A DNA stretch of 64,000 bases from Candidatus Bathyarchaeota archaeon. Its GTDB lineage: Archaea; Thermoproteota; Bathyarchaeia; Bathyarchaeales; SOJC01. The notes under the pieces were generated by a model. That model worked only from the letters and a program-made list of their open reading frames with translations, was not told where the DNA came from and searched no databases. Shown here piece by piece: positions 1-48,455 of this stretch. Position 1 is the first letter of the stretch, and the number at the start of each line of letters is the position of its first letter. The position numbers and the translations under genes were made by a program. The stretch spans positions 745,775 through 809,774 of the forward strand of contig CP070649.1 of assembly GCA_020354575.1 (NCBI GenBank), written 5' to 3'.

Positions 1-700
1 TCAGCGTAGTATCCAGTTTCTTATGACCCATTTGTTGCTTAACTAGTAGAATATCTTTCGTCTTATCGTAAAGTGCGGTTGCGAAGTAGTGTCTGAAGTC
101 ATAGAGCCTTATTGTTTTGAGTGTTGCGTCTTGTAGTTTTTCGGCTAGTCGGTTTCTGAGGTTTCGGTACATCTTTCCGTAGTAATCTAAGTCTCCAGTG
201 AATAGGTTATCGTCTGGTTTTAGGTGTCGTTTCTGTATGTGGTCCCCTAGTCGTTTGGCTAGACTTTGTGATATTCTTAATTGCCTAGAGGCTCCGTATT
301 TGGCAGTTGTTGGGTAAATGATTCTTTGCTCAAGGTCTGCGTCCTTCACTTTTAGGTTGCATAACTCTACGGGTCTTAATCCTGTTTCCATGCTGAGTTG
401 TAGTTTTGTGCTTAATGTGTTGCCTGCTCCTGAGATTATTTTGTGTAACCTTTCGCGGGTTGGGATTCTGATAGGTTTGGCGATGTCGTGGTAAATGGGC
501 TTCTGCCATTGGATGTTGTGAAACTTCACATAGTGCTCATAGGCTCTTATGTAGTTGCGTTTAGTGCCATTGCTTACTTCGCGTCTCGCGATGAATTGCT
601 TAACTTGGTCTGGGTTGTCTATGTCGGTGTGCTCTGCGATGAGTCTTAAGGCTTTGCCTACTGCTTTGATGCTGTGATCGCTTAATCCGTTGTTCTTCAT
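1..700 (-). CDS. Tyrosine recombinase / integrase, partial (C-terminus beyond window)
   Basis: Site-specific recombinase of the tyrosine (phage integrase/XerA) family, which would cut and rejoin DNA at attachment sites. The 233 visible residues contain an N-terminal SAM-like core-binding region (about 1-65) and most of the catalytic domain. The first catalytic arginine is R109 in METGLRPVEL, the box II region is LYDFRHYFAT (R203, with Y200 where a histidine is common), and H226 lies in MGHKKLDTT. The nucleophilic tyrosine would lie just beyond base 1. I used the ATG at 700, but the frame is open upstream to a stop near 808 with recognisable core-binding sequence (FFIEILVRM), so the true N-terminus is probably further upstream or missing. 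That open frame crosses the 3' end of the RNase P RNA gene. It could be a chromosomal Xer protein or the integrase of an integrated element; the window does not decide. Confidence 0.88.
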   Translation of the reverse strand, partial: MKNNGLSDHSIKAVGKALRLIAEHTDIDNPDQVKQFIARREVSNGTKRNYIRAYEHYVKFHNIQWQKPIYHDIAKPIRIPTRERLHKIISGAGNTLSTKLQLSMETGLRPVELCNLKVKDADLEQRIIYPTTAKYGASRQLRISQSLAKRLGDHIQKRHLKPDDNLFTGDLDYYGKMYRNLRNRLAEKLQDATLKTIRLYDFRHYFATALYDKTKDILLVKQQMGHKKLDTTL

Positions 701-746
701 GCGCACTAGGATTTCTATAAAAAAGTGGTCGGGTTTCGGTGTTTTT

Positions 747-1058
747 GGGCTGGTGTGCTGGGCGTAACCCGCCTTTTGTTCAAAGATGGCATTTGGCTAA
801 TCGGGCTACCCTCGCTTCATGCAGTTTTCATAAGCGTCTGTTTGCCCTTGCACCTTGCAGGACAGCCGTTTCAACGCTTCACACCCAGCATCTTCAACAA
901 CTTGAATGTATCATTATCAAGTGCCGGATGGACGTTTCGTTTCTGTTCTGTTGCCAAGACTCTCGCCTTGCATCCTTACGAATGCTGCAAGTCTGCATGG
1001 TGGGCGGAGTTTCCTCAAGCCTTTCTCGGCTCGGAGCCATCCGCCAGCTCACCAGCCC
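747..1058 (-). ncRNA. rnpB: RNase P RNA (archaeal type A)
   Basis: Catalytic RNA of ribonuclease P, which removes the 5' leader of tRNA precursors. On the minus strand the transcript opens with GGGCTGGTG and closes with CACCAGCCC, a perfect 9-bp P1 helix that defines both ends and gives 312 nt. The conserved 5' P4 block reads GAGGAAACTCCGCCC (about 1016-1002). The 3' P4 partner reads ACAAAAGGCGGGTTACGCCC (about 779-760). The internal block GCAACAGAACAGAAACGAAA (about 954-935) and GGGTAGCCCG (near 810-800) match conserved core regions. No protein gene is plausible here; two short open frames on the plus strand are antisense to this RNA. Confidence 0.95.
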
Positions 1059-3299: not shown

Positions 3300-4868
3300 A
3301 TGAAAAAGATCTTGGAAATTAACATGAAACCAGATACTGTTCTAGTCCTGGACTTCGGAGGGCAATACTGTCACCTTATAGCGAGACGGATCAGAGAAAA
3401 TAAGGTATACTCAGAGATAGTATCCTCTGAGATCTCTCCAGCTGAAATTAAGCGTTGGCAAAAAAAACTAGACGTCAAAGGGCTAATTTTGTCCGGTGGA
3501 CCCCAAAGCGTTTTCGAACCAACCGCCCTAAAGATTAACCCTGAAATCCTTGACTTTAATCTGCCAGTGTTGGGATTATGCTATGGCCATCAAATCATAG
3601 CTCTTACTGTTGGTGGAACAGTAAAACCATCAGAGAAGAAAGAATTTGGTGTCGCCTATGCAACAATTGATAAACCAGTTGGGGTTCTGAAAGGTTTAGA
3701 GAATCAAGAAAAGGTCTGGATGAGCCACAGTGATACGGTATTCGACCTCCCAAAGCAACATGAGATATTAGCTCACACTGATAATTGCCCCATTGCTGCT
3801 TTCCGCCTTGGAAACCACCCGATTTATGGGCTGCAGTGGCATCCAGAGGTTGTCCACACGGAACATGGAAACAAAATGCTGAAGAATTTTCTATTTGACG
3901 TGTGTGGATGTCAACCAAACTGGACCATGGATGATTTCCTTGAAAAATCCGCTGATGAAATACTATCCGCAGTTGGTGATGAGAAAGTAATAGTGGCGCT
4001 GAGCGGAGGTATAGATTCTAGCACTGCAACAGCCATAGCTGCACGGGCCATAGGAAAAAACCTGACTGCTGTCTTTGTGGACCACGGATTCATGCGGGAA
4101 GACGAGCCAAAATTTGTCAAAGACACATTTGAAAATTTTGATATGCATTTCGTCGCTGTCAACGCTCAACAGAGATTTTTGCAGAGGCTTCAAAACATAA
4201 CAGATCCAGAGAAGAAGCGTACGATTATCGGTGAAGAGTTTGTCCGCGTCTTTGAGGAAGAAGCGAGAAAAGTCAATGCAAACTATCTTTTGCAAGGAAC
4301 CATTTATCCTGACAGAATCGAATCCGGATTTAGGAAGTTCTCCGACAAAATCAAATCCCATCACAATGTTGCTGGACTTCCAACCAAAATAGAATTCAAA
4401 TCAGTAGTAGAACCCTTAAAAGACTTGTACAAAGATGAAGTCCGGGAAGTCGCCAAGAAGCTCGGGCTTCCGAAGGCAATTGTCACAAGACAACCCTTTC
4501 CCGGACCTGGTTTAGCAGTGAGGGTAACAGGCGCGATTACCGAAGCCAAATTAAGCATTTTAAGAAAAGCTGACAAGATTGTCACAGAGGAGATTGAGAA
4601 AGTTGGGTTGGCTGGCGAATTGTGGCAATATTTTGCTGTTCTCTCAAATACAAAAAGTACTGGAATCAAAGGAGACTCGAGAGCGTATGGTCACATGATA
4701 GCATTACGAATTGTGGAGAGTAGAGAAGCTATGACTGCGAGCTTCGCTAAAATTCCCTATGACATTCTTGAGAAAATTTCTTCAAGAATAGTAAATGAGA
4801 TACCTGCTGTAACTAGAGTGGTTTATGATATTACTCACAAGCCTCCTGCCACGATTGAGTGGGAATAA
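3300..4868 (+). CDS. guaA: GMP synthase (glutamine-hydrolysing), two-domain form
   Basis: Converts XMP, ATP and glutamine to GMP, the last step of guanine nucleotide synthesis. The 522 residues hold an N-terminal glutamine amidotransferase with catalytic C94 (LGLCYGHQ), H181 and E183 (WHPE). The ATP-pyrophosphatase domain has P-loop SGGIDS (235-240), and the C-terminal GMP synthase dimerisation domain contains QPFPGPGLAVR and ends KPPATIEWE. Many archaea carry the two halves as separate genes; here they are one chain of normal bacterial/eukaryotic length. A second in-frame Met at 3324 (MKPDTVLVLDFGG) is an equally likely start. A divergent paralogue of the PP-loop half lies at 46933-48132. 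Confidence 0.96.
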   Translation: MKKILEINMKPDTVLVLDFGGQYCHLIARRIRENKVYSEIVSSEISPAEIKRWQKKLDVKGLILSGGPQSVFEPTALKINPEILDFNLPVLGLCYGHQIIALTVGGTVKPSEKKEFGVAYATIDKPVGVLKGLENQEKVWMSHSDTVFDLPKQHEILAHTDNCPIAAFRLGNHPIYGLQWHPEVVHTEHGNKMLKNFLFDVCGCQPNWTMDDFLEKSADEILSAVGDEKVIVALSGGIDSSTATAIAARAIGKNLTAVFVDHGFMREDEPKFVKDTFENFDMHFVAVNAQQRFLQRLQNITDPEKKRTIIGEEFVRVFEEEARKVNANYLLQGTIYPDRIESGFRKFSDKIKSHHNVAGLPTKIEFKSVVEPLKDLYKDEVREVAKKLGLPKAIVTRQPFPGPGLAVRVTGAITEAKLSILRKADKIVTEEIEKVGLAGELWQYFAVLSNTKSTGIKGDSRAYGHMIALRIVESREAMTASFAKIPYDILEKISSRIVNEIPAVTRVVYDITHKPPATIEWE

Positions 4869-28124: not shown

Positions 28125-30026
28125 TTGCATAGGTGCAAATACAAGTCAGTAATAGTGATAATGCTATTTTTTGCTCTATTTTGTACGATAATCATAGCTT
28201 TTACCAATGCAACTTCCGTAAGCATATATCCCAGTGATGATTCGTGGGTCGATTTTGAGTTTCCGGATGTGAATTTTGGCTGGCAAGACATGATCCATGT
28301 GATGGCAGGGGCAACGGTTCGTCGATCTTACTTGAAGTTTGATTTGAGTATAGTGCCACCGGAGAATGTGTTAACAGCAGTGACATTGCACTTGTATTGT
28401 ACAGCTGATGGCAGTCACAACTTTACCGTGAATGCCCATGAGACCGTGGACAACTGGAATGAAAGCAATATTACGTGGAATAACGCGCCTCCCGTTGGGA
28501 CACTTGTCTCTAGTACGATCGTGGGAAACATCTACACTTACTATTCGTGGGATATTACAACGTATGCCCAAGCTCAATACGAGGGCGACCAAGTGTTGAG
28601 CCTCGTCTTGAAATCTCCCCTCGATGATCCCGCTGGATTACCCTATGATCCAATCTCCCATCGGGACTTTAGTAGCAAAGAGATGTCGGGGACGGAGTAT
28701 GACCCTTACCTAGAAATCACCTATGAGCCTATCCAATATTATCTGTCGGTGGTTTCTCCTTATGGTGTTCCTGCTGGAGAAGGCTGGTATGAAAGTGGCA
28801 GCACAGCTTATGCCATGCTTGACACCAATGCTATCGATCACGGAAACGGCACTCGCCGAGTTTTTGTATCTTGGATCAACGATGCCTCAGGAACTGACTA
28901 TGCTCAAAGCGACCCAATCATAATGGACAGCTCGAAAACAGCTATGGCAAGCTGGAAAACGGAATATTATCTGTCGGTAGTTTCTCCTTATGGTGTTCCT
29001 GCTGGAGAAGGCTGGTATGAAAGTGGCAGCACAGCTTATGCTTCGCTGGACACCAATACCATAGATCATGTTAACGGAACTCGTAGAGTATTTACTTCAT
29101 GGAGTGGAGATGGTTCAGGTTCAGATTATGCTCAAAGCGACCCAATCATAATGGACAGGCCGAAAATTGTTGAAGCAAACTGGAACACGCAGCACCGCTT
29201 AACAATAGCGGTGATTCCTAATGGAGTCACCACGCCTTCAGGTGAAGGCTGGTACGATGCTGACACATATGCCTCAGTTTCCACAGATGGCTCAATTGAA
29301 ATCATAACAGATTCTTCTCGTCACATGTTCATTGACTGGACAACCGCTGACATATCTGAAATAACGGATCCTCTCTCGCCTTCAACGACTGTTTTGATGG
29401 ACAAAGCCAAGACTATAACTGCGAACTACAAGACACAATATTATCTAACAGTAATCTCACCATACAATTCTCCCACACCAACTAGCAACTGGTTCGACGC
29501 TGGAACTTACATCACTGCATCTGTTACCTCACCTGCCCTCGGATCTATTGGAACGCGACACTTATGCACTGGATGGATAGGGAATGGAAGCGTTCCTAGT
29601 TCTGGAACAACGATATCCATAGCTTTCACAATTGATGAGCCATCAACTATTACCTGGAATTGGGAAAACCAATATTACTTAACAGTAAACTCCAACCCTT
29701 TGGGTCTGGGACCTATACCCGGCGAAGGGTGGTATGACGAGTCTGAGAGCGTAAATCTCGATGCACCCTATTTCTTTGGATTCGAGTTTCTTCATTGGGA
29801 TTTGGATGGCGTTTCACAAGGAGATGAAATCAAGCAAATTATAGTCGATATGGACAAGCCTTATACTGCTACTGCTAACTATGCAAGGCGTCCGTCTATT
29901 GTCGGAGGGTCATCGACCTCTATAAAATCTCCCTCTCTCCCAACATGGATAAGCTTGAACATAACTCTAATCGCTGCAATACTAACAGCAGCATTTTGGA
30001 GGAAAGGGCGGAAAGATAACTACTAG
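28125..30026 (+). CDS. Secreted, membrane-anchored repeat protein (DNRLRE-like domain plus repeats)
   Basis: Predicted surface protein of 633 residues. A signal peptide (about 1-28, core VIVIMLFFALFCTIIIAF) is followed by a beta-rich domain (about 33-200; RRSYLKFDLS, TVDNWNESNITWNNAP) resembling the DNRLRE/CBM96 group. Then come five units of about 75-85 residues beginning YYLSVVSPYG or similar and containing GEGWYE or a variant. A C-terminal membrane helix (ISLNITLIAAILTAAFW) ends in a KGRKD-type basic tail. Two of the repeats are nearly identical at DNA level. TTG 28125 is chosen because it supplies the basic n-region, with AGGAG in front. It is probably a cell-surface adhesin or polysaccharide-binding protein. 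Confidence 0.82.
   Translation: MHRCKYKSVIVIMLFFALFCTIIIAFTNATSVSIYPSDDSWVDFEFPDVNFGWQDMIHVMAGATVRRSYLKFDLSIVPPENVLTAVTLHLYCTADGSHNFTVNAHETVDNWNESNITWNNAPPVGTLVSSTIVGNIYTYYSWDITTYAQAQYEGDQVLSLVLKSPLDDPAGLPYDPISHRDFSSKEMSGTEYDPYLEITYEPIQYYLSVVSPYGVPAGEGWYESGSTAYAMLDTNAIDHGNGTRRVFVSWINDASGTDYAQSDPIIMDSSKTAMASWKTEYYLSVVSPYGVPAGEGWYESGSTAYASLDTNTIDHVNGTRRVFTSWSGDGSGSDYAQSDPIIMDRPKIVEANWNTQHRLTIAVIPNGVTTPSGEGWYDADTYASVSTDGSIEIITDSSRHMFIDWTTADISEITDPLSPSTTVLMDKAKTITANYKTQYYLTVISPYNSPTPTSNWFDAGTYITASVTSPALGSIGTRHLCTGWIGNGSVPSSGTTISIAFTIDEPSTITWNWENQYYLTVNSNPLGLGPIPGEGWYDESESVNLDAPYFFGFEFLHWDLDGVSQGDEIKQIIVDMDKPYTATANYARRPSIVGGSSTSIKSPSLPTWISLNITLIAAILTAAFWRKGRKDNY
28735..29190 (+). repeat. Tandem 228-bp duplication within the surface-protein gene
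   Basis: Bases 28735-28813 and 28963-29041 are 79-bp blocks differing at one position. The blocks at 28899-28930 and 29127-29158 are identical 32-mers at the same 228-bp offset. The period equals 76 codons, one protein repeat. The near-identity beside diverged middle sections indicates a recent duplication or gene conversion. Confidence 0.85.
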
Positions 30027-37695: not shown

Positions 37696-38640
37696 TTGTT
37701 GAGAAATATAATTGAAGCTGTGCCTAATTTTAGCACTTCTAATCCCACGGTTGTAAAAGCTATTCTGAACGAGCTAAAGAAAATTGCAAATGTGTATCTA
37801 CTCGACTATACCTATGACGATTATTATAATCGACTTGTGGTTTCATTCGTAGGGAATGAAAACTCGATTTTACAGGCTTCTTTGAAAATGGCTGCTAAAG
37901 GGATTGAGCTCATAGACATGAACCAACATAAAGGACAGCATCCACGCATTGGTGCAGTTGACGTTTTTCCCTTCATACCGCTTCGACACATTTCAATCGA
38001 AACGTGTGTTAGAATTGCCAAGAAATTTGGCAAATCTTTGGCAGAAAAGCATCAAGTTCCTGTTTATCTCTACGGAATGGCTGCGGAACCAGAAAGAAGC
38101 GACCTAGATTGGATCAGAAAGGGAGAGTACGAAGCCTTATTTGAAATGATCCGAAAACCTGAACGCAAACCTGATTATGGTCCTGCAGTGCCTCATCCCA
38201 CAGCAGGTGCAACCATCACAGGTGCTCGGAAGGTGATGGCAGGTTTCAATGTGAATTTAAATACTTCAGATTTAAAAGTCGCCAAAAAAATCGCGAGAAC
38301 CTTACATGCAAAGAAAGGAGGCTTTGCGACAGTTAAGGCTATGGCTGCTAGTGTTCCCAAAAAAAAGATTACTCAGATTGGCATGAGCATCACCAACTTC
38401 GACCAAACACCTTTGTACCGAGTCTTTGAAGTTCTAAAGCTGGAGGCAGCAAGGCATAATGTATCCATTATGAGCTCAGAGTTTTGCGGCATGACCCCAA
38501 TAAAATCTCTGATAGATATCGCAGCTTATTATCTAAAGATTGACAATTTATCAGAGGATAGGGTTCTCGAGATCGCCATACAAAAGGCAATGGAAAAGGA
38601 TTTACAGCATGATCAAAGAAAAAGCAGACTTGGTAATTGA
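37696..38640 (+). CDS. ftcD: Glutamate formimidoyltransferase
   Basis: Transfers the formimino group of N-formimino-glutamate, the product of the Hut pathway, to tetrahydrofolate or another pterin, releasing glutamate. Its 314 residues cover both subdomains of the transferase (VPNFSTSNPTVVKAIL, QHKGQHPRIGAVDVFPFIP, VMAGFNVNLNT). The cyclodeaminase domain of the bifunctional mammalian FTCD is absent. TTG 37696 is the first codon that fits the family N-terminus (IIEAVPNFS); TTG 37699 is adjacent. It is the first gene of the hut operon, overlapping hutI by 32 bp. Confidence 0.94.
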   Translation: MLRNIIEAVPNFSTSNPTVVKAILNELKKIANVYLLDYTYDDYYNRLVVSFVGNENSILQASLKMAAKGIELIDMNQHKGQHPRIGAVDVFPFIPLRHISIETCVRIAKKFGKSLAEKHQVPVYLYGMAAEPERSDLDWIRKGEYEALFEMIRKPERKPDYGPAVPHPTAGATITGARKVMAGFNVNLNTSDLKVAKKIARTLHAKKGGFATVKAMAASVPKKKITQIGMSITNFDQTPLYRVFEVLKLEAARHNVSIMSSEFCGMTPIKSLIDIAAYYLKIDNLSEDRVLEIAIQKAMEKDLQHDQRKSRLGN

Positions 38641-39865
38641 AAAAGCCAACGAACTCATAACGTTGTGTCACACAAATGCGACTCCCATCAAAAAAGAAAG
38701 AATGCAGAACCTAGGTATAATAAAAAGCGGATCAATAGCCATTCGCAACGGAAAAATAATATCAGTGGGCAATGCGCGCACAATTAAGCATAAGTTCAAA
38801 CCTAAAAGAATTATTGATGCTTCCGGAAAAACCGTTATGCCTGGGTTTGTTGATTCCCATACCCACTTGATTTTTGCAGGTTCTCGGGAAGAAGAATTTA
38901 AAAAGCAGCTGCAAGGTGCAAGCTACCTAGAAATTCTGGAGAAAGGTGGAGGAATTCTAAGTACCGTAAGAGAAACAAGAAAGGCTTCTAAAGCAGAACT
39001 TGTTAGCTCTGGAAGGAAAACACTTGATGTTATGCTAAAACATGGCACAACTACTGTGGAGGCCAAAAGTGGCTATGGACTTACGACGAAAGATGAGATC
39101 AAATGCTTACAAACCATGAAAGAATTAAGCATAGCCCATCCCATTGATATTGTGCCTACTTTTCTCGGGGCGCACGCTCTTCCAATCGAGTATGCCGGCA
39201 AATCAGATGAGTATGTATCATTAGTGACTGATGAAATGATTCCCGCAATCACTGAGAGAAGACTTGCTGAATTCTGCGATGTTTTCTGCGAGAAAGGCGC
39301 CTTTGATTTCATGCAATCCAAGAAAATCTTGCTGAAAGGCAAAAAATGCGGTCTGAAGCTGAAAATCCATGCAGACGAGCTGACAAATCAGAATGGAGCT
39401 GAATTAGCAGCAGAAGTTGGGTGCGTATCAGCTGAACATTTGTTATTTTCTTCTGAAACTGGATTGAAGGCGATGGCAAAGAAGGGAGTAATTGCGATTT
39501 TACTCCCAGCAGCTTCATTTTCATTATCAACTAAGAGATTTGCAAATGCCAAAGAGATTTTAGAATTGGGAGTTCCCATGGCCTTAGGCACTGATTTTAA
39601 TCCGATTTGTTGGACAGAAAACATGCAAGAAATAATTACCCTTGCCTGTAGACTGATGCATATCGCTCCCGCTGAAGCAATCGTTGCATCCACCATAAAT
39701 GCAGCATATGCAATAGACCGCGGGCAAGAGGTTGGCAGTCTGGAGAAAGGAAAAAAAGCGGATATAATAGTGCTCGATATTCCCAATCATGAGCATTTAG
39801 GTTATAGATTCGGAGTGAATCTTGTGGATAAAGTTGTCAAAGGAGGATGTGTAGTAGTAGACTAA
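38609..39865 (+). CDS. hutI: Imidazolonepropionase
   Basis: Metal-dependent amidohydrolase that opens the imidazolone ring of 4-imidazolone-5-propionate to give formiminoglutamate. It has 418 residues from ATG 38609, which is preceded by AAGGA and lies inside the end of ftcD. The metal site [15 protein letters not shown], the substrate-site [12 protein letters not shown] region, HADEL and the C-terminal LGTDFNP are all present. It is the third reaction of the pathway, encoded between ftcD and hutU. Confidence 0.95.
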
Positions 39866-39878
39866 GGGAGAAGTGAAT

Positions 39879-41546
39879 ATGTCAGAGAGAATATTGAGAT
39901 CCATTACTGGAAAGGAACTTCACTGCAAGAATTGGCAAATCGAAGGTATTTACCGTATGCTTCATCACGTTCTTGATCCAGAAGTGGCCAAAGATCCCGA
40001 CCATCTAATTGTTTATGGGGGAACTGGAAAAGCTGCCAGAAATTGGAGTTGTTTTGAACAGATTGTCCAGACCCTAGAGCAACTGGAACCAGACGAAACT
40101 ATGCTCATCCAAAGCGGTAAACCAGTAGCAGTTTTTAAAACACACAAGTGGGCGCCAAGAACATTGATCGTCAACTCCATGCTAGTTCCGAAATGGGCTA
40201 CTTGGAGTCATTTTTACGAATTAGAGCAAAAGGGTTTGATAATGTTTGGTCAAATGACTGCAGGCTCTTGGGCCTATATTGGCACTCAAGGAATTTTACA
40301 GGGTACCTATGAAACCTTGGCAGCAGTTGCTCGAGAGCATTTTGATGGAAGTTTGCGAGGCAAGCTTGTCTTGACAGCAGGGCTGGGTGAGATGGGTGGT
40401 GCTCAACCACTAGCAGTGACCATGAATGAAGGTGTGGCGTTGGTGGTCGAGATTGATAAGAGAGCCATTGAAAGACGCATTGAACACAAATACCTGCAAA
40501 CTTGGACTGACAACCTTGATGATGCAGTTGGCTTGGTTATCGAAGCCAAACAAGACGGAGAACCACGGAGTATTGGTCTTCTTGGAAATTCTGCAGAAGT
40601 GCATCACGAACTGGTTGCAAGAAACATCATTCCAGACGTTTTGACAGATCAAACATCAGCTCATGATCCACTCAATGGTTATTATCCCCATGGACTTTCC
40701 AAGGAAGAAGCTGACGAGTTGAGGAAAGAGGAGCCAACATCCTATATTAAGAAAGCTTGTGAAAGCATGAAATTTCAAGTCAAAGCTATGGTTGAAATGA
40801 TGCGGAAAGGTGCAGTAACTTTTGAATATGGCAACAATCTAAGACAACAGGCTTATGATGCTGGTTGTCTTGACGCTTTTAGTTTTCCAGGCTTTGTACA
40901 ACGTTATATTCGACCCAACTTCTGTGAAGGACGGGGACCTTTCCGTTGGACCTCGCTTATCGGCATCTCCGAAGACATCTATAAACTCGACGATCTAATT
41001 CTCACGGAATTCGCTCATAATAAAGAGCTATGCCGTTGGATCCGAAAGGCAAAAGAAGAAGTGACCTTCCAAGGATTACCTGCTCGTGTTTGCTGGTTAG
41101 GATTTGGAGAGAGAGCTCGATTTGGCAAGCTTGTGAATGAAATGGTACATAAAGGCGAACTTTCTGGACCTATATGGATAGGACGCGACCATCTAGATTG
41201 CGGAAGTGTCGCTTCACCAAACCGCGAAACAGAAGGCATGATGGATGGCAGTGATGCCATTGCAGACTGGCCTATCTTAAACGCCCTACTAAATGCTGTG
41301 GGAGGAGCAACTTGGGTTTCAGTTCATCATGGCGGTGGCGTGGGCATAGGTTATAGTATTCATGCAGGTATGTGTCTTGTAGCAGATGGCACACGAGAAT
41401 CCGAAAAGCGATTGGTAACAGTTCTGACAACCGATCCCGGAATAGGAATTGTTAGACACGCCGATGCAGGTTATCAGAAAGCTCAAAAAATGGCAAAAGC
41501 GAACGCAATCAAGATGCCCATGCTAAATAGAAAAGCAAATGATTGA
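39879..41546 (+). CDS. hutU: Urocanate hydratase
   Basis: Hydrates urocanate to 4-imidazolone-5-propionate using tightly bound NAD as an electrophile. It is 555 residues long, the usual urocanase length. The family signature and NAD region are [30 protein letters not shown] and [12 protein letters not shown]; the C-terminal block is [21 protein letters not shown] 39879 follows GGGAG at an 8-nt spacing, and GTG 39873 is in frame. It is third in the hut operon. Confidence 0.96.
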
Positions 41547-41584
41547 AATCTGTCTATGTATCTACCTGACAACTGGGGAAGATT

Positions 41585-43138
41585 ATGGAAAAAGTAGTTA
41601 TTGACGGTGACGCGTTGAATATTGATGACGTAGTTTCTGTTGCTCGATTTGATGCAAGAGTAGTGATTTCCAAGAAGGCGAAAAATAAAGTCAGAAAGGC
41701 ACGAGATACTTTGGATCACCTCTTGAAAGAAAAAAAACCTATTTACGGAGTGACAACGGGTTTCGGAGCATTAGGAAACGTGCCAATCGCACCCAAAGAC
41801 TTCAAAAAGCTTCAGGTAAACCTCATCCGAAGTCATTCTTCAGGTGTTGGAAAACCTTTAAGCAGGGACATAATTCGGGCATTAATGCTTTTGCGTGCAA
41901 ACACGTTAGCAAAGGGCTATTCAGGAGTGCGTCTGACAACTTTAGAGACGCTTGTGAAGATGATCAACAAAAGGGTGCATCCAATTGTTCCGGAGAAAGG
42001 TTCTGTGGGCGCCAGCGGCGATTTGACCCCTCTCTCCCATATGGTTTTAGTGATGATTGGAGAAGGTGAAGCAGAATTTCAGGGTATTACCATGAGCGGA
42101 AAAGAAGCTATGGAAAAATCGAACATTTCTCCGGTAGTTCTTGACGTTAAAGAAGGCGTTGCTTTGAATAATGGTACGCAGATGATGACTGCCATTGCTG
42201 CCTTGCTGGTTTATGATGCCGAGAATTTAGTAAAAACGGCGGAGGTCGCAGCCTCGCTGAGCCTTGAAGCCTTATGTGGAATAACGGAGGCTTTCGACGA
42301 CCGAATTCACCGTGTCAAACCTCACAGAGGGCAAATGGAAAGCGCTAGAAATGTTCTCACCCTTTTATCTGGTAGCAAACTAGTGAAGGCAAATGTCAAA
42401 ATAGGCAAAGGAAACAAGTATCCACAAGATCCCTATTCTCTGCGATGCATCCCACAAGTCTTAGGTTCGGTCCGTGATATTGCAAAATATGTGAAGAGCA
42501 TAGTGAATATCGAGATTAACTCTGCTACCGACAATCCTCTCGTTTTTGCTGAAGATGGGGTATGTCTTTCAGGAGGCAACTTTCATGGACAATATATTTC
42601 AGCTGCTATGGATTATCTTGCAATTGCATTAGCCACAATAGGAAACCTTTCTGAACGACGAATTGCCAGGTTGATTGATGAGAGCTTGAGCCAAGGGCTT
42701 CCTCCATTTCTCATTTCGAAGAAAGCCAAGAGTGGTGTGCAAAGTGGCTTCATGACACTTCAATACACAGCTGCCGCGTTGGCTTCAGAAAACAAATCCT
42801 TGTCTCACCCAGCGAGTGTTGATTCGATTCCCACATCAGCGAATTTTGAGGATTTTGTGAGTATGGGACCTTTTGCAGCGACAAAAGCTCTTGAAATTCT
42901 CAGTAACGTCCAATATATCGTTGCAATTGAACTACTATCAGCAGCACAAGGCGTCGAATTTCGAGGAGTGCAGAGTCTCGGCAAAGGTACAAGGCAAGCC
43001 TACGATATTATAAGGAGTAAAATCTCTACCTTGAAAGAGGATAGAGCAGTTTCTAGAGACATTGAGATAATGAAGGGAATGATTGGAAATTGTGAGCTTG
43101 GTGATGTGGGCGTAAATAAAGGTGGCCTTCTATCATAA
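41585..43138 (+). CDS. hutH: Histidine ammonia-lyase
   Basis: Removes ammonia from histidine to give urocanate, the entry step of the Hut pathway. The internal Ala-Ser-Gly (143-145 in GSVGASGDLTPLSHM) cyclises to the MIO prosthetic group. Y54 in IYGVTTGFG, NNGTQ and the INSATDNPL block are also present in 517 residues. GGGGAAG precedes ATG 41585. It is the last gene of the operon, although it acts first. Confidence 0.96.
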   Translation: MEKVVIDGDALNIDDVVSVARFDARVVISKKAKNKVRKARDTLDHLLKEKKPIYGVTTGFGALGNVPIAPKDFKKLQVNLIRSHSSGVGKPLSRDIIRALMLLRANTLAKGYSGVRLTTLETLVKMINKRVHPIVPEKGSVGASGDLTPLSHMVLVMIGEGEAEFQGITMSGKEAMEKSNISPVVLDVKEGVALNNGTQMMTAIAALLVYDAENLVKTAEVAASLSLEALCGITEAFDDRIHRVKPHRGQMESARNVLTLLSGSKLVKANVKIGKGNKYPQDPYSLRCIPQVLGSVRDIAKYVKSIVNIEINSATDNPLVFAEDGVCLSGGNFHGQYISAAMDYLAIALATIGNLSERRIARLIDESLSQGLPPFLISKKAKSGVQSGFMTLQYTAAALASENKSLSHPASVDSIPTSANFEDFVSMGPFAATKALEILSNVQYIVAIELLSAAQGVEFRGVQSLGKGTRQAYDIIRSKISTLKEDRAVSRDIEIMKGMIGNCELGDVGVNKGGLLS

Positions 43139-46932: not shown

Positions 46933-48132
46933 CTATTCCATTTCAACAGTTGCAGGTGGTTTGGAAGTAACGTCATAATATATCGCAGAGACGTTTTTGC
47001 ACGAGTCTAATATCATATCTGCAGTCTCGTTTAGCGTATTCCATGGGATATCAGCTACTTTTGCTGTCAGAAAATCCTGTGTCTGGATTGCTCTCAAAAT
47101 GACAACATAAGGTAACCTCTTTGGGACTTCTTTTAAGAGGTATAGTATTCGAGTGAAGTAAGGATCTCCAGAAGTAATCTTAGTTTGAAGAGCAACTAAA
47201 TTTGACATCGAAGGGTTATAAAGATTGCCAGTTTCATTCTGAATCTTTAATGATGCAACTCCACCATACATTCTCTTTCCATCCTTGACGCCTGTTGCTT
47301 TTGCTTCGAAAATTTGCACAGTTACATGTCTTGAAGGAACATTGAGTACACGGGCAGCTGTCTCCTTGATGTGCATGCAGCTTGCATGAGGAATTTTATT
47401 GTCTTCAATGATTGCAGGGAAATACTGGCTAGGTTTGTGCCTTGCAAAATTTCTTTCGACAATTACAGTTGCTTTTTTCACAGAATCTAGCTTTTCTCCT
47501 GTGATTTTGCCTACGACTCTTACAGATAAGCCAGGACCTGGAAAAGGCTGTCTATCGGAAATTTCTAAAGGAATCTCAAGATATTTAGCTACAATACGAA
47601 CCTGATCCTTATATAGTGAGACTAAAGGTTCAACGACTTTGAAGCCATAGCGTTCGACTGTATTAATGCCTATTTGCTCAAGGACATTGTGCTGAGTCTT
47701 CACACCACCTGCTGTCTCTACTATATCCGCCTTTATGGTCCCCTGAACAAGTACTCTGCACTCTTCCTTCTCAGCAGTTCTACCTAGGATATTGTAAAAA
47801 GTTTCACGAAAGGCTTTTCGTTTTTCCTCTGCATCCTTCAATCCATCTAAAGCATTCAAAAATTGTTCTTGAACATTCAGTATTCTAATTGGCAATCTTA
47901 TAGGTGGCTTAGATGCTAGCTGAGCGATATATTGGGCTTCTCCTTCCCTCATAAAAGCATCATCCAGCATTACGCACACAAGGTTATCGCCAATTGCCTT
48001 GTAGGTTAAAATGGCGCTTGTAGTACTGTCAACACCTCCTGAAACTGCAACTAACGCCTTTTCACGTCCCACAAACCTTTTGATCTGCCTAACTTGGGTC
48101 TCCACGAATTTCTGGGGATTAAACTCGTTCAA
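46933..48132 (-). CDS. GMP synthase subunit B-like PP-loop protein (divergent paralogue)
   Basis: Homologue of the ATP-pyrophosphatase plus C-terminal half of GMP synthase, 399 residues from TTG 48132. GGAGG lies 10 nt upstream, and the N-terminus MNEFNPQKFVETQV matches stand-alone archaeal GuaAb. The P-loop is VAVSGGVDSTT, the QPFPGPGLSVRV motif is kept, and the end is SKPPATVEME. It has no glutaminase domain and is about 90 residues longer than normal GuaAb, with inserted sequence between the PP-loop and C-terminal regions. The XMP-binding GIKSHHN-type motif reads GVKTQHN. Because a complete guaA exists at 3300, this paralogue may act on another substrate or with a separate glutaminase. Confidence 0.85.
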   Translation of the reverse strand: MNEFNPQKFVETQVRQIKRFVGREKALVAVSGGVDSTTSAILTYKAIGDNLVCVMLDDAFMREGEAQYIAQLASKPPIRLPIRILNVQEQFLNALDGLKDAEEKRKAFRETFYNILGRTAEKEECRVLVQGTIKADIVETAGGVKTQHNVLEQIGINTVERYGFKVVEPLVSLYKDQVRIVAKYLEIPLEISDRQPFPGPGLSVRVVGKITGEKLDSVKKATVIVERNFARHKPSQYFPAIIEDNKIPHASCMHIKETAARVLNVPSRHVTVQIFEAKATGVKDGKRMYGGVASLKIQNETGNLYNPSMSNLVALQTKITSGDPYFTRILYLLKEVPKRLPYVVILRAIQTQDFLTAKVADIPWNTLNETADMILDSCKNVSAIYYDVTSKPPATVEME

Positions 48133-48455
48133 CCAAGAACATCCTCCAACAACTGATACAGTCCTTTTGCTTAAATATTTACCACCTTCTTTATGGTCAT
48201 GATACCTCCACTCAATATTGGCAAAGAAAACGACAGTCAAAGCTCTCCCATTTTACCTTGCAATACATTCCAGGAATAAGTAATTTTTTCTATATTTCTT
48301 TCAAAAATCATTTAATGGCTTTTTCTTTTTTGCCGGTAATATTGTCGCTATTCACTATAACTGCAGTACACACACCTCTCGACGTCATCAATTTTAAATG
48401 CCAAGATTTTTGTTCTGTAAGCCTTAGTCTCTTATGACAATAAGGAGACAGTTTT

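Follow-up and report, generated by a model that had tools for sequence, protein, structure and literature searches.

The 64,000-nucleotide stretch of Candidatus Bathyarchaeota DNA analysed here (the window; assembly GCA_020354575.1, contig CP070649.1, positions 745,775 to 809,774) very probably begins within an integrated genetic element. At a probability of roughly 0.83, its first bases represent the left attachment site (attL) and the C-terminal integrase fragment, int(C), of an SSV-like ("suicidal") integrase element residing in rnpB, the single-copy and essential gene for RNase P RNA. In the proposed mechanism, a PF00589 XerA-like tyrosine recombinase would join an element core of ~22 bp (CGGGTTACNNCCARCACRCCAG) to the identical 3' strand of P1 in rnpB, and the RNase P RNA would stay whole because the element brings its own copy of this strand. 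As the integrase gene of the element would contain the core close to its 5' end, integration would leave int(C) without a start, reading out of rnpB, while a short int(N) that carries the start would end up at the far edge of the element. That the window copy, whose far edge is unassembled, is such an element is inferred from relatives, as are the exact crossover point and the activity. The features of the junction in the window are as follows.

753..1052, minus strand: rnpB, the archaeal RNase P RNA gene (Rfam RNaseP_arch, RF00373; 206.4 bits, gathering threshold 84, complete model 1-288)
748..771, minus strand: att core CGGGTTACGCCCAGCACACCAGCC, the 3' strand of rnpB P1; putative attL crossover region, with further copies at the distal edges of elements in relatives
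2..796, minus strand: integrase reading frame, putative int(C); 265 codons visible, PF00589 at E=2.7e-18, matching PHROG integrases
692..727, minus strand: first helix of the core-binding domain (codons for residues 24-35), from the AlphaFold2 model and XerA alignment; partly upstream of the ATG
698..706, minus strand: first in-frame starts, GTG at 706-704 and ATG at 700-698, from the sequence; both within helix 1
1..1, no strand: end of an assembly contig, with base 1 directly after a 100-N spacer

The integrase frame runs on the minus strand with rnpB directly upstream and is free of stops from 796 to the window edge, while the outer P1 pairing of rnpB reaches about 745 and 1059, with 12 of 13 pairs formed. 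A first-pass annotation of this DNA had the frame open from the ATG at 700 back to a stop near 808, overlapping the last 60 bp of rnpB. The frame is indeed open upstream of the ATG, but the nearest in-frame stop is at 797-799, with another at 806-808, and the overlap shrinks to 44 nt (753-796) by the Rfam ends or to ~52 nt when the outer P1 is counted to 745. The same annotation recognized core-binding sequence (FFIEILVRM) encoded before the ATG, and this reading holds. Homologues align in frame from about residues 14-25 of the window integrase onward, and in the AlphaFold2 model helix 1 begins before M33, the residue of ATG 700, with block-mean pLDDT values of 75-87 in this region and below 50 for residues 1-17. 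The helix 1 stretch aligns with XerA from residue 13 onward and matches helix 1 of that protein. M33 is replaced by leucine in 3 of 10 aligned rows, so that ATG 700 is not a universal start. Because homologues align in frame, M33 is variable and the available starts fall inside helix 1, the sequence upstream of ATG 700 is coding rather than open by chance. No ribosome-binding motif is evident in the window sequence before GTG 706 or ATG 700, and the frame holds no start codon between att and helix 1. Residues R141, K166, R235 and H258 are invariant in the integrase alignment; the tyrosine is present in relatives and, in the window, lies past the contig end. We take the series R..K..R..H..Y to be the catalytic residues of a Phage_integrase (PF00589) tyrosine recombinase.

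A survey of relatives revealed how often this junction occurs. Public records place the related sequences in Candidatus Bathyarchaeota, and some related integrase is present in 81 of 101 genomes. A match to rnpB was obtained in 119 of 162 genomes, 118 of them above the cut-off, and the survey comprised 109 rnpB genes from 108 of these 118; left out were genomes in which rnpB is partial or cut at or near a contig end (G001, G009, G044, G071, G093, G135, G142, G146, G155 and G159; here and below G000 is the window genome, other G numbers are relatives and C numbers their contigs). A same-strand integrase starts within 200 nt of the end of 14 of the 109 genes, an opposite-strand integrase is found at the 3' end of seven, and 81 have none; the flank is shorter than 200 nt in the remaining 7/109. 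Two of the 14 same-strand integrases (G002, G049) are short, weak remnants with E values of 5e-5 and 1e-3; among the seven opposite-strand ones, G143:C108 is also weak (7e-4). When 20 integrase loci were scanned with Rfam, RNaseP_arch was found directly upstream and in the same orientation at six, and tRNAs at others. The opposite-strand integrases at the rnpB 3' end constitute a second type, seen at L296 (G104:C49, 843-1766), at L305 (G143:C120, 855-1790) and also in G134, G136, G140 and G116; those of G104 and G143 are intact, have a cysteine-rich N-terminus and face rnpB with their 3' ends. RF00373 also matches partial rnpB copies (22.8-72.7 bits, about 67-150 nt long) in G108, G111, G055 and G109, with loci at L291 (G108:C27:115978-116089), L306 (G111:C75) and L290 (G055:C3). 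The copy in G108 lies 3.5 kb from the full rnpB, and such copies are perhaps longer att duplications.

Searches for the attachment site itself revealed direct repeats in the relatives. The 24-mer CGGGTTACGACCAGCACACCAGCC, allowing up to 3 mismatches, matched in 84 of 162 genomes, and a reversed-pattern control matched in none of the 162. Most matches are rnpB itself, and many genomes carry additional copies. Second copies of the core on the same contig form seven att pairs spanning 1.2-8.0 kb (G017, 4,909 bp apart; G008, 6,570; G051, 6,678; G036:C12, 5,055; G036:C19, 7,954; G045, 3,288; G146, 1,184). Far-edge copies in G051, G127 and G156 have a core variant identical to that of their own genome's rnpB, and a recurrent motif, (A)ATTACTAAGG..(ATGA), lies upstream of most far copies, though not all. 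An empty site is represented by G063, where rnpB is followed by genes that, judged by their sequences, appear to be tsr3/DUF367-like, nnr-like and, further on, tiaS-like. The DNA past the far copy of G051 is colinear with the DNA past the empty rnpB of G063 (68.8% over 2,013 nt), and a colinear empty-site flank also follows the far att copy in G156, G008:C24, G054, G087 and G097. Because rnpB, int(C) and the tsr3-nnr flank past the far att all lie on one contig, G051 is a complete specimen, arranged as rnpB, int(C), 6.7 kb of further DNA, int(N), att and tsr3-nnr.

Several observations concern the content of these elements. In the 4.9-kb rnpB element of G017 (L061, on C1), a TATA-binding protein is encoded between the att copies (PF00352, E 9.7e-62), an unusual cargo for an element so small. 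G017 also has orphan int(N)-att sites off the rnpB contig (G017:C31:67361 and G017:C36:2480), each followed by an apparently decayed int(C); these are possibly rearranged or relic arrays. Rep-like ORFs of G051 and G008 presumably carry HUH-like motifs, as seen by eye; Pfam assigned no Rep family to either ORF, nor did PHROGs to that of G051. A search of IMG/VR for a free element gave no exact pattern match, and the integrase profile retrieved distant integrases only, as did phage and plasmid records, in which no free element was found.

The window genome is a metagenome-assembled genome (MAG) with contigs concatenated by 100-N spacers, one of which (G000:C1:745675-745774) immediately precedes window base 1, so that the contig end truncates the integrase. 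The element interior, int(N) and attR are absent from the window because base 1 is that end, and adjacency on the left is meaningless since the DNA there consists of other MAG contigs joined by spacers. The first-pass annotation had proposed rnpB as the attachment site and the window integrase as an int(C) remnant, to be recognized by a second copy of the rnpB 3' sequence with an int(N) fragment at a far edge. This arrangement exists in relatives, where it is seen as repeats, int(N)-like ORFs and, in G051 among others, displaced host flank; in G000 itself, patterns with up to 3 mismatches gave a single core site, and a k-mer comparison covering the window and the 60 kb on its left gave only chance matches of 12-14 bases. 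The nnr and tsr3 genes of G000 are on another contig, which ends 562 bp past tsr3. A contig end on the tsr3 side is expected if an insert broke the assembly, and the arrangement fits an insert separating these genes from rnpB, although it is no proof.

Two further integrases of the family are encoded in G000 (G000:C1:596981-597697 and 973843-974595; L366, L358), their frames beginning in apparent tRNA 3' ends, at which ARAGORN called no tRNA. Elsewhere in the window, a 228-bp tandem repeat (28735-29166; 1.9 copies, 84%) lies within an ORF of 633 aa (28125-30026). Four successive ORFs at 37696-43138 resemble, by eye, a histidine-degradation cluster, presumably formiminotransferase, imidazolonepropionase, urocanase and histidine ammonia-lyase. 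Two ORFs appear by eye to be GMP-synthase-like, the first (3300-4868) with an amidotransferase part and the second (46933-48240) consisting of the ATP-pyrophosphatase part only.

Whether integration splits the integrase gene was approached by joining the two ends of elements in relatives. Short ATG-started ORFs, the putative int(N)s, run into far att copies, several of them with purine-rich leaders. Full-length integrase was restored in part: when int(N) was joined through the core to int(C), two intact elements, G036:C12 (321 aa from its ATG) and G051 (also from an ATG), yielded a single ORF of some 320-350 aa, to which int(N) contributes about 14 to 37 codons from the first ATG to the core. 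The frame was also restored in G146, as a decayed ORF. It was not restored in the contiguous pairs of G017, G008 and G036:C19, and the G045 pair is decayed. Joins across contigs are open in G036, G008, G017 and G153, as well as in G156, which has no ATG on its contig, and fail in G127. Frame matching as stand-alone proof of a split gene was dropped: where both sides of a contiguous pair have an identifiable frame (six pairs), it is restored in 3, about as often as chance (1 in 3) would give. The split is the less well supported half of the proposal. The int(C)s of relatives read the att core in all three frames, and in three of them (G036 first copy, G010 and G051) att is followed by an in-frame ATG from which a nearly full protein might still be made. 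Mismatched int(N)/int(C) pairs can be read as chimeric or decayed arrays because G036 and G008 each hold several att copies and because recombination between integrated elements is described as yielding chimeric int genes in a review of archaeal integrases (PMC8371274).

The RNase P RNA appears to survive these insertions. In the 12 filled genes tested, outer P1 retains 10-12 of its 13 pairs, compared with 12 pairs in four empty ones; because this pairing persists in filled genes, rnpB appears to be rebuilt on integration in the manner of tRNA genes.

Comparison of integrases with their hosts bears on whether the junction was inherited or formed repeatedly. In a tree of 51 chosen integrases, made by a quick method without bootstrap, 12 rnpB-site integrases cluster with five others (SH-aLRT 99), and the hosts within this group are a mixture of families f1, f6 and f7. 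Three att-linked integrases of G036 belong to two distant subgroups of this group. The integrases of G153 and G156 fall outside it, beside the intact, opposite-strand integrase of G104, and therefore at least two integrase lineages have reached the rnpB site. G045 is filled, while G024, G030, G033 and G039, which share its genus label, are empty. From the integrase tree, the differing frames through att, the same-genus empty sites and the divergent integrases of G036, we conclude on sequence grounds that insertion at rnpB is repeated and independent rather than vertically inherited. Conservation of the rnpB-recombinase junction across diverse relatives had been named beforehand as an observation that would speak against an element; literally, the junction does recur, in 14 of 109 rnpB genes, yet tree, frames and empty sites identify this recurrence as repeated insertion.

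An unlikely alternative, though the most serious, is classical (pNOB8-like) integration, in which att would lie just outside the coding part and the integrase would be whole, starting at a non-ATG codon or at GTG 706 or ATG 700. The three int(C)s with an ATG just after att agree with it, as do the contiguous pairs in which the frame through att is not restored (three of six) and the intact integrases whose 3' ends abut rnpB in G104 and G143. Against this, the window frame offers no start between att and helix 1, its first starts lying inside that helix with no evident ribosome-binding motif, and the residue of the ATG is leucine in 3 of 10 rows. A whole integrase also leaves unaccounted for the ATG-started short ORFs that enter far att copies, some behind purine-rich leaders, and the single ORF across att in two intact elements.

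Two other explanations carry little weight. A resident chromosomal recombinase, inherited vertically beside rnpB with a misannotated start, would agree with recurrence of the junction in several families, but is highly improbable and was rejected: 81 of 109 rnpB genes have no integrase, among them those of the four empty congeners of G045, the integrase tree disagrees with host families, and direct repeats are accompanied by displaced host flank. Slightly less credible still is a chimeric assembly in which an integrase was misjoined to rnpB; the junction does lie less than 800 bp from a contig end of a MAG, but the same architecture is present in independent MAGs of named public records.

Beyond this locus, we lean towards the view that the 3' P1 strand of archaeal rnpB is a standing integration hotspot, reached independently by two or more lineages of tyrosine recombinases, of which one is self-splitting, unrelated in domain to SSV, pTN3 and pT26-2 integrases, and also uses tRNA 3' ends. 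If this is true, self-splitting integrases would have arisen more than once, and also outside the elements of hyperthermophiles. Because int(N) would be only a few dozen codons long, integration would in effect remove the start of the integrase gene. With rnpB, the strategy of targeting the 3' end of a structured RNA gene and rebuilding it, known for tRNA and tmRNA, would extend to a ribozyme, and these elements lend themselves to studying how many times self-splitting integrases have arisen and what makes them persist. Insertion may also account for breaks in these MAG assemblies at rnpB, and the att core provides a simple search key for new plasmids or viruses of Bathyarchaeota.

Reports of rnpB as an integration target were not found in the PMC open-access literature, a scope that takes in few subscription papers; where rnpB occurred there together with integrase terms, its promoter was used as a tool. 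A survey of Thaumarchaeota gives tRNA genes, protein genes and intergenic sites as targets, and the review of archaeal tyrosine recombinases names tRNA, protein-coding and intergenic targets, with no mention of RNase P (PMC8371274). The closest solved relative is XerA (4a8e, E=6.4e-21; 5hxy, 1.7e-19), an archaeal chromosome recombinase, whereas the rnpB integrases are multi-copy, element-borne and situated beside RNA-gene 3' ends. Other Bathyarchaeota integrases of the same family have frames running out of tRNA-Ala, tRNA-Thr and tRNA-Gln genes, most without an ATG before the domain; they differ in target, and the tree places them apart from the main rnpB group. Classical pNOB8-type integration is represented at the same target by the intact opposite-strand integrases of G104 and G143, which are uninterrupted with the 3' end facing rnpB, unlike the window integrase, in which no start codon lies between att and the first helix.

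The closest likeness is to the suicidal modules of SSV1, pTN3 and pT26-2, in which att lies inside int near an RNA target, integration splits int into int(N) and int(C), and int(C) overlaps the 3' end of the target (PMC8371274); the rnpB elements have the overlap and would probably share the position of att and the split. Of the corresponding features, flanking direct repeats were found in relatives (G051) and same-strand overlap of int(C) with the RNA gene in the window itself; the integrase would presumably catalyse integration at the rnpB site. Arrays and mixed N/C pairs are likewise common to both, in keeping with the recombination model of Badel et al. 2021 (PMC8371274). The rnpB elements differ from these modules in target, which is a tRNA gene there and rnpB here, and in their short int(N), of about 14 to 37 codons in the two restored intact elements. 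They differ also in domain: PF00589 was detected in all 10 family members examined and PF16795 (Phage_integr_3), the domain given for the suicidal families in the review (PMC8371274), in none of them at E<=0.01. Finally, where the same review speaks of hyperthermophilic archaea, the hosts here are Bathyarchaeota (PMC8371274).
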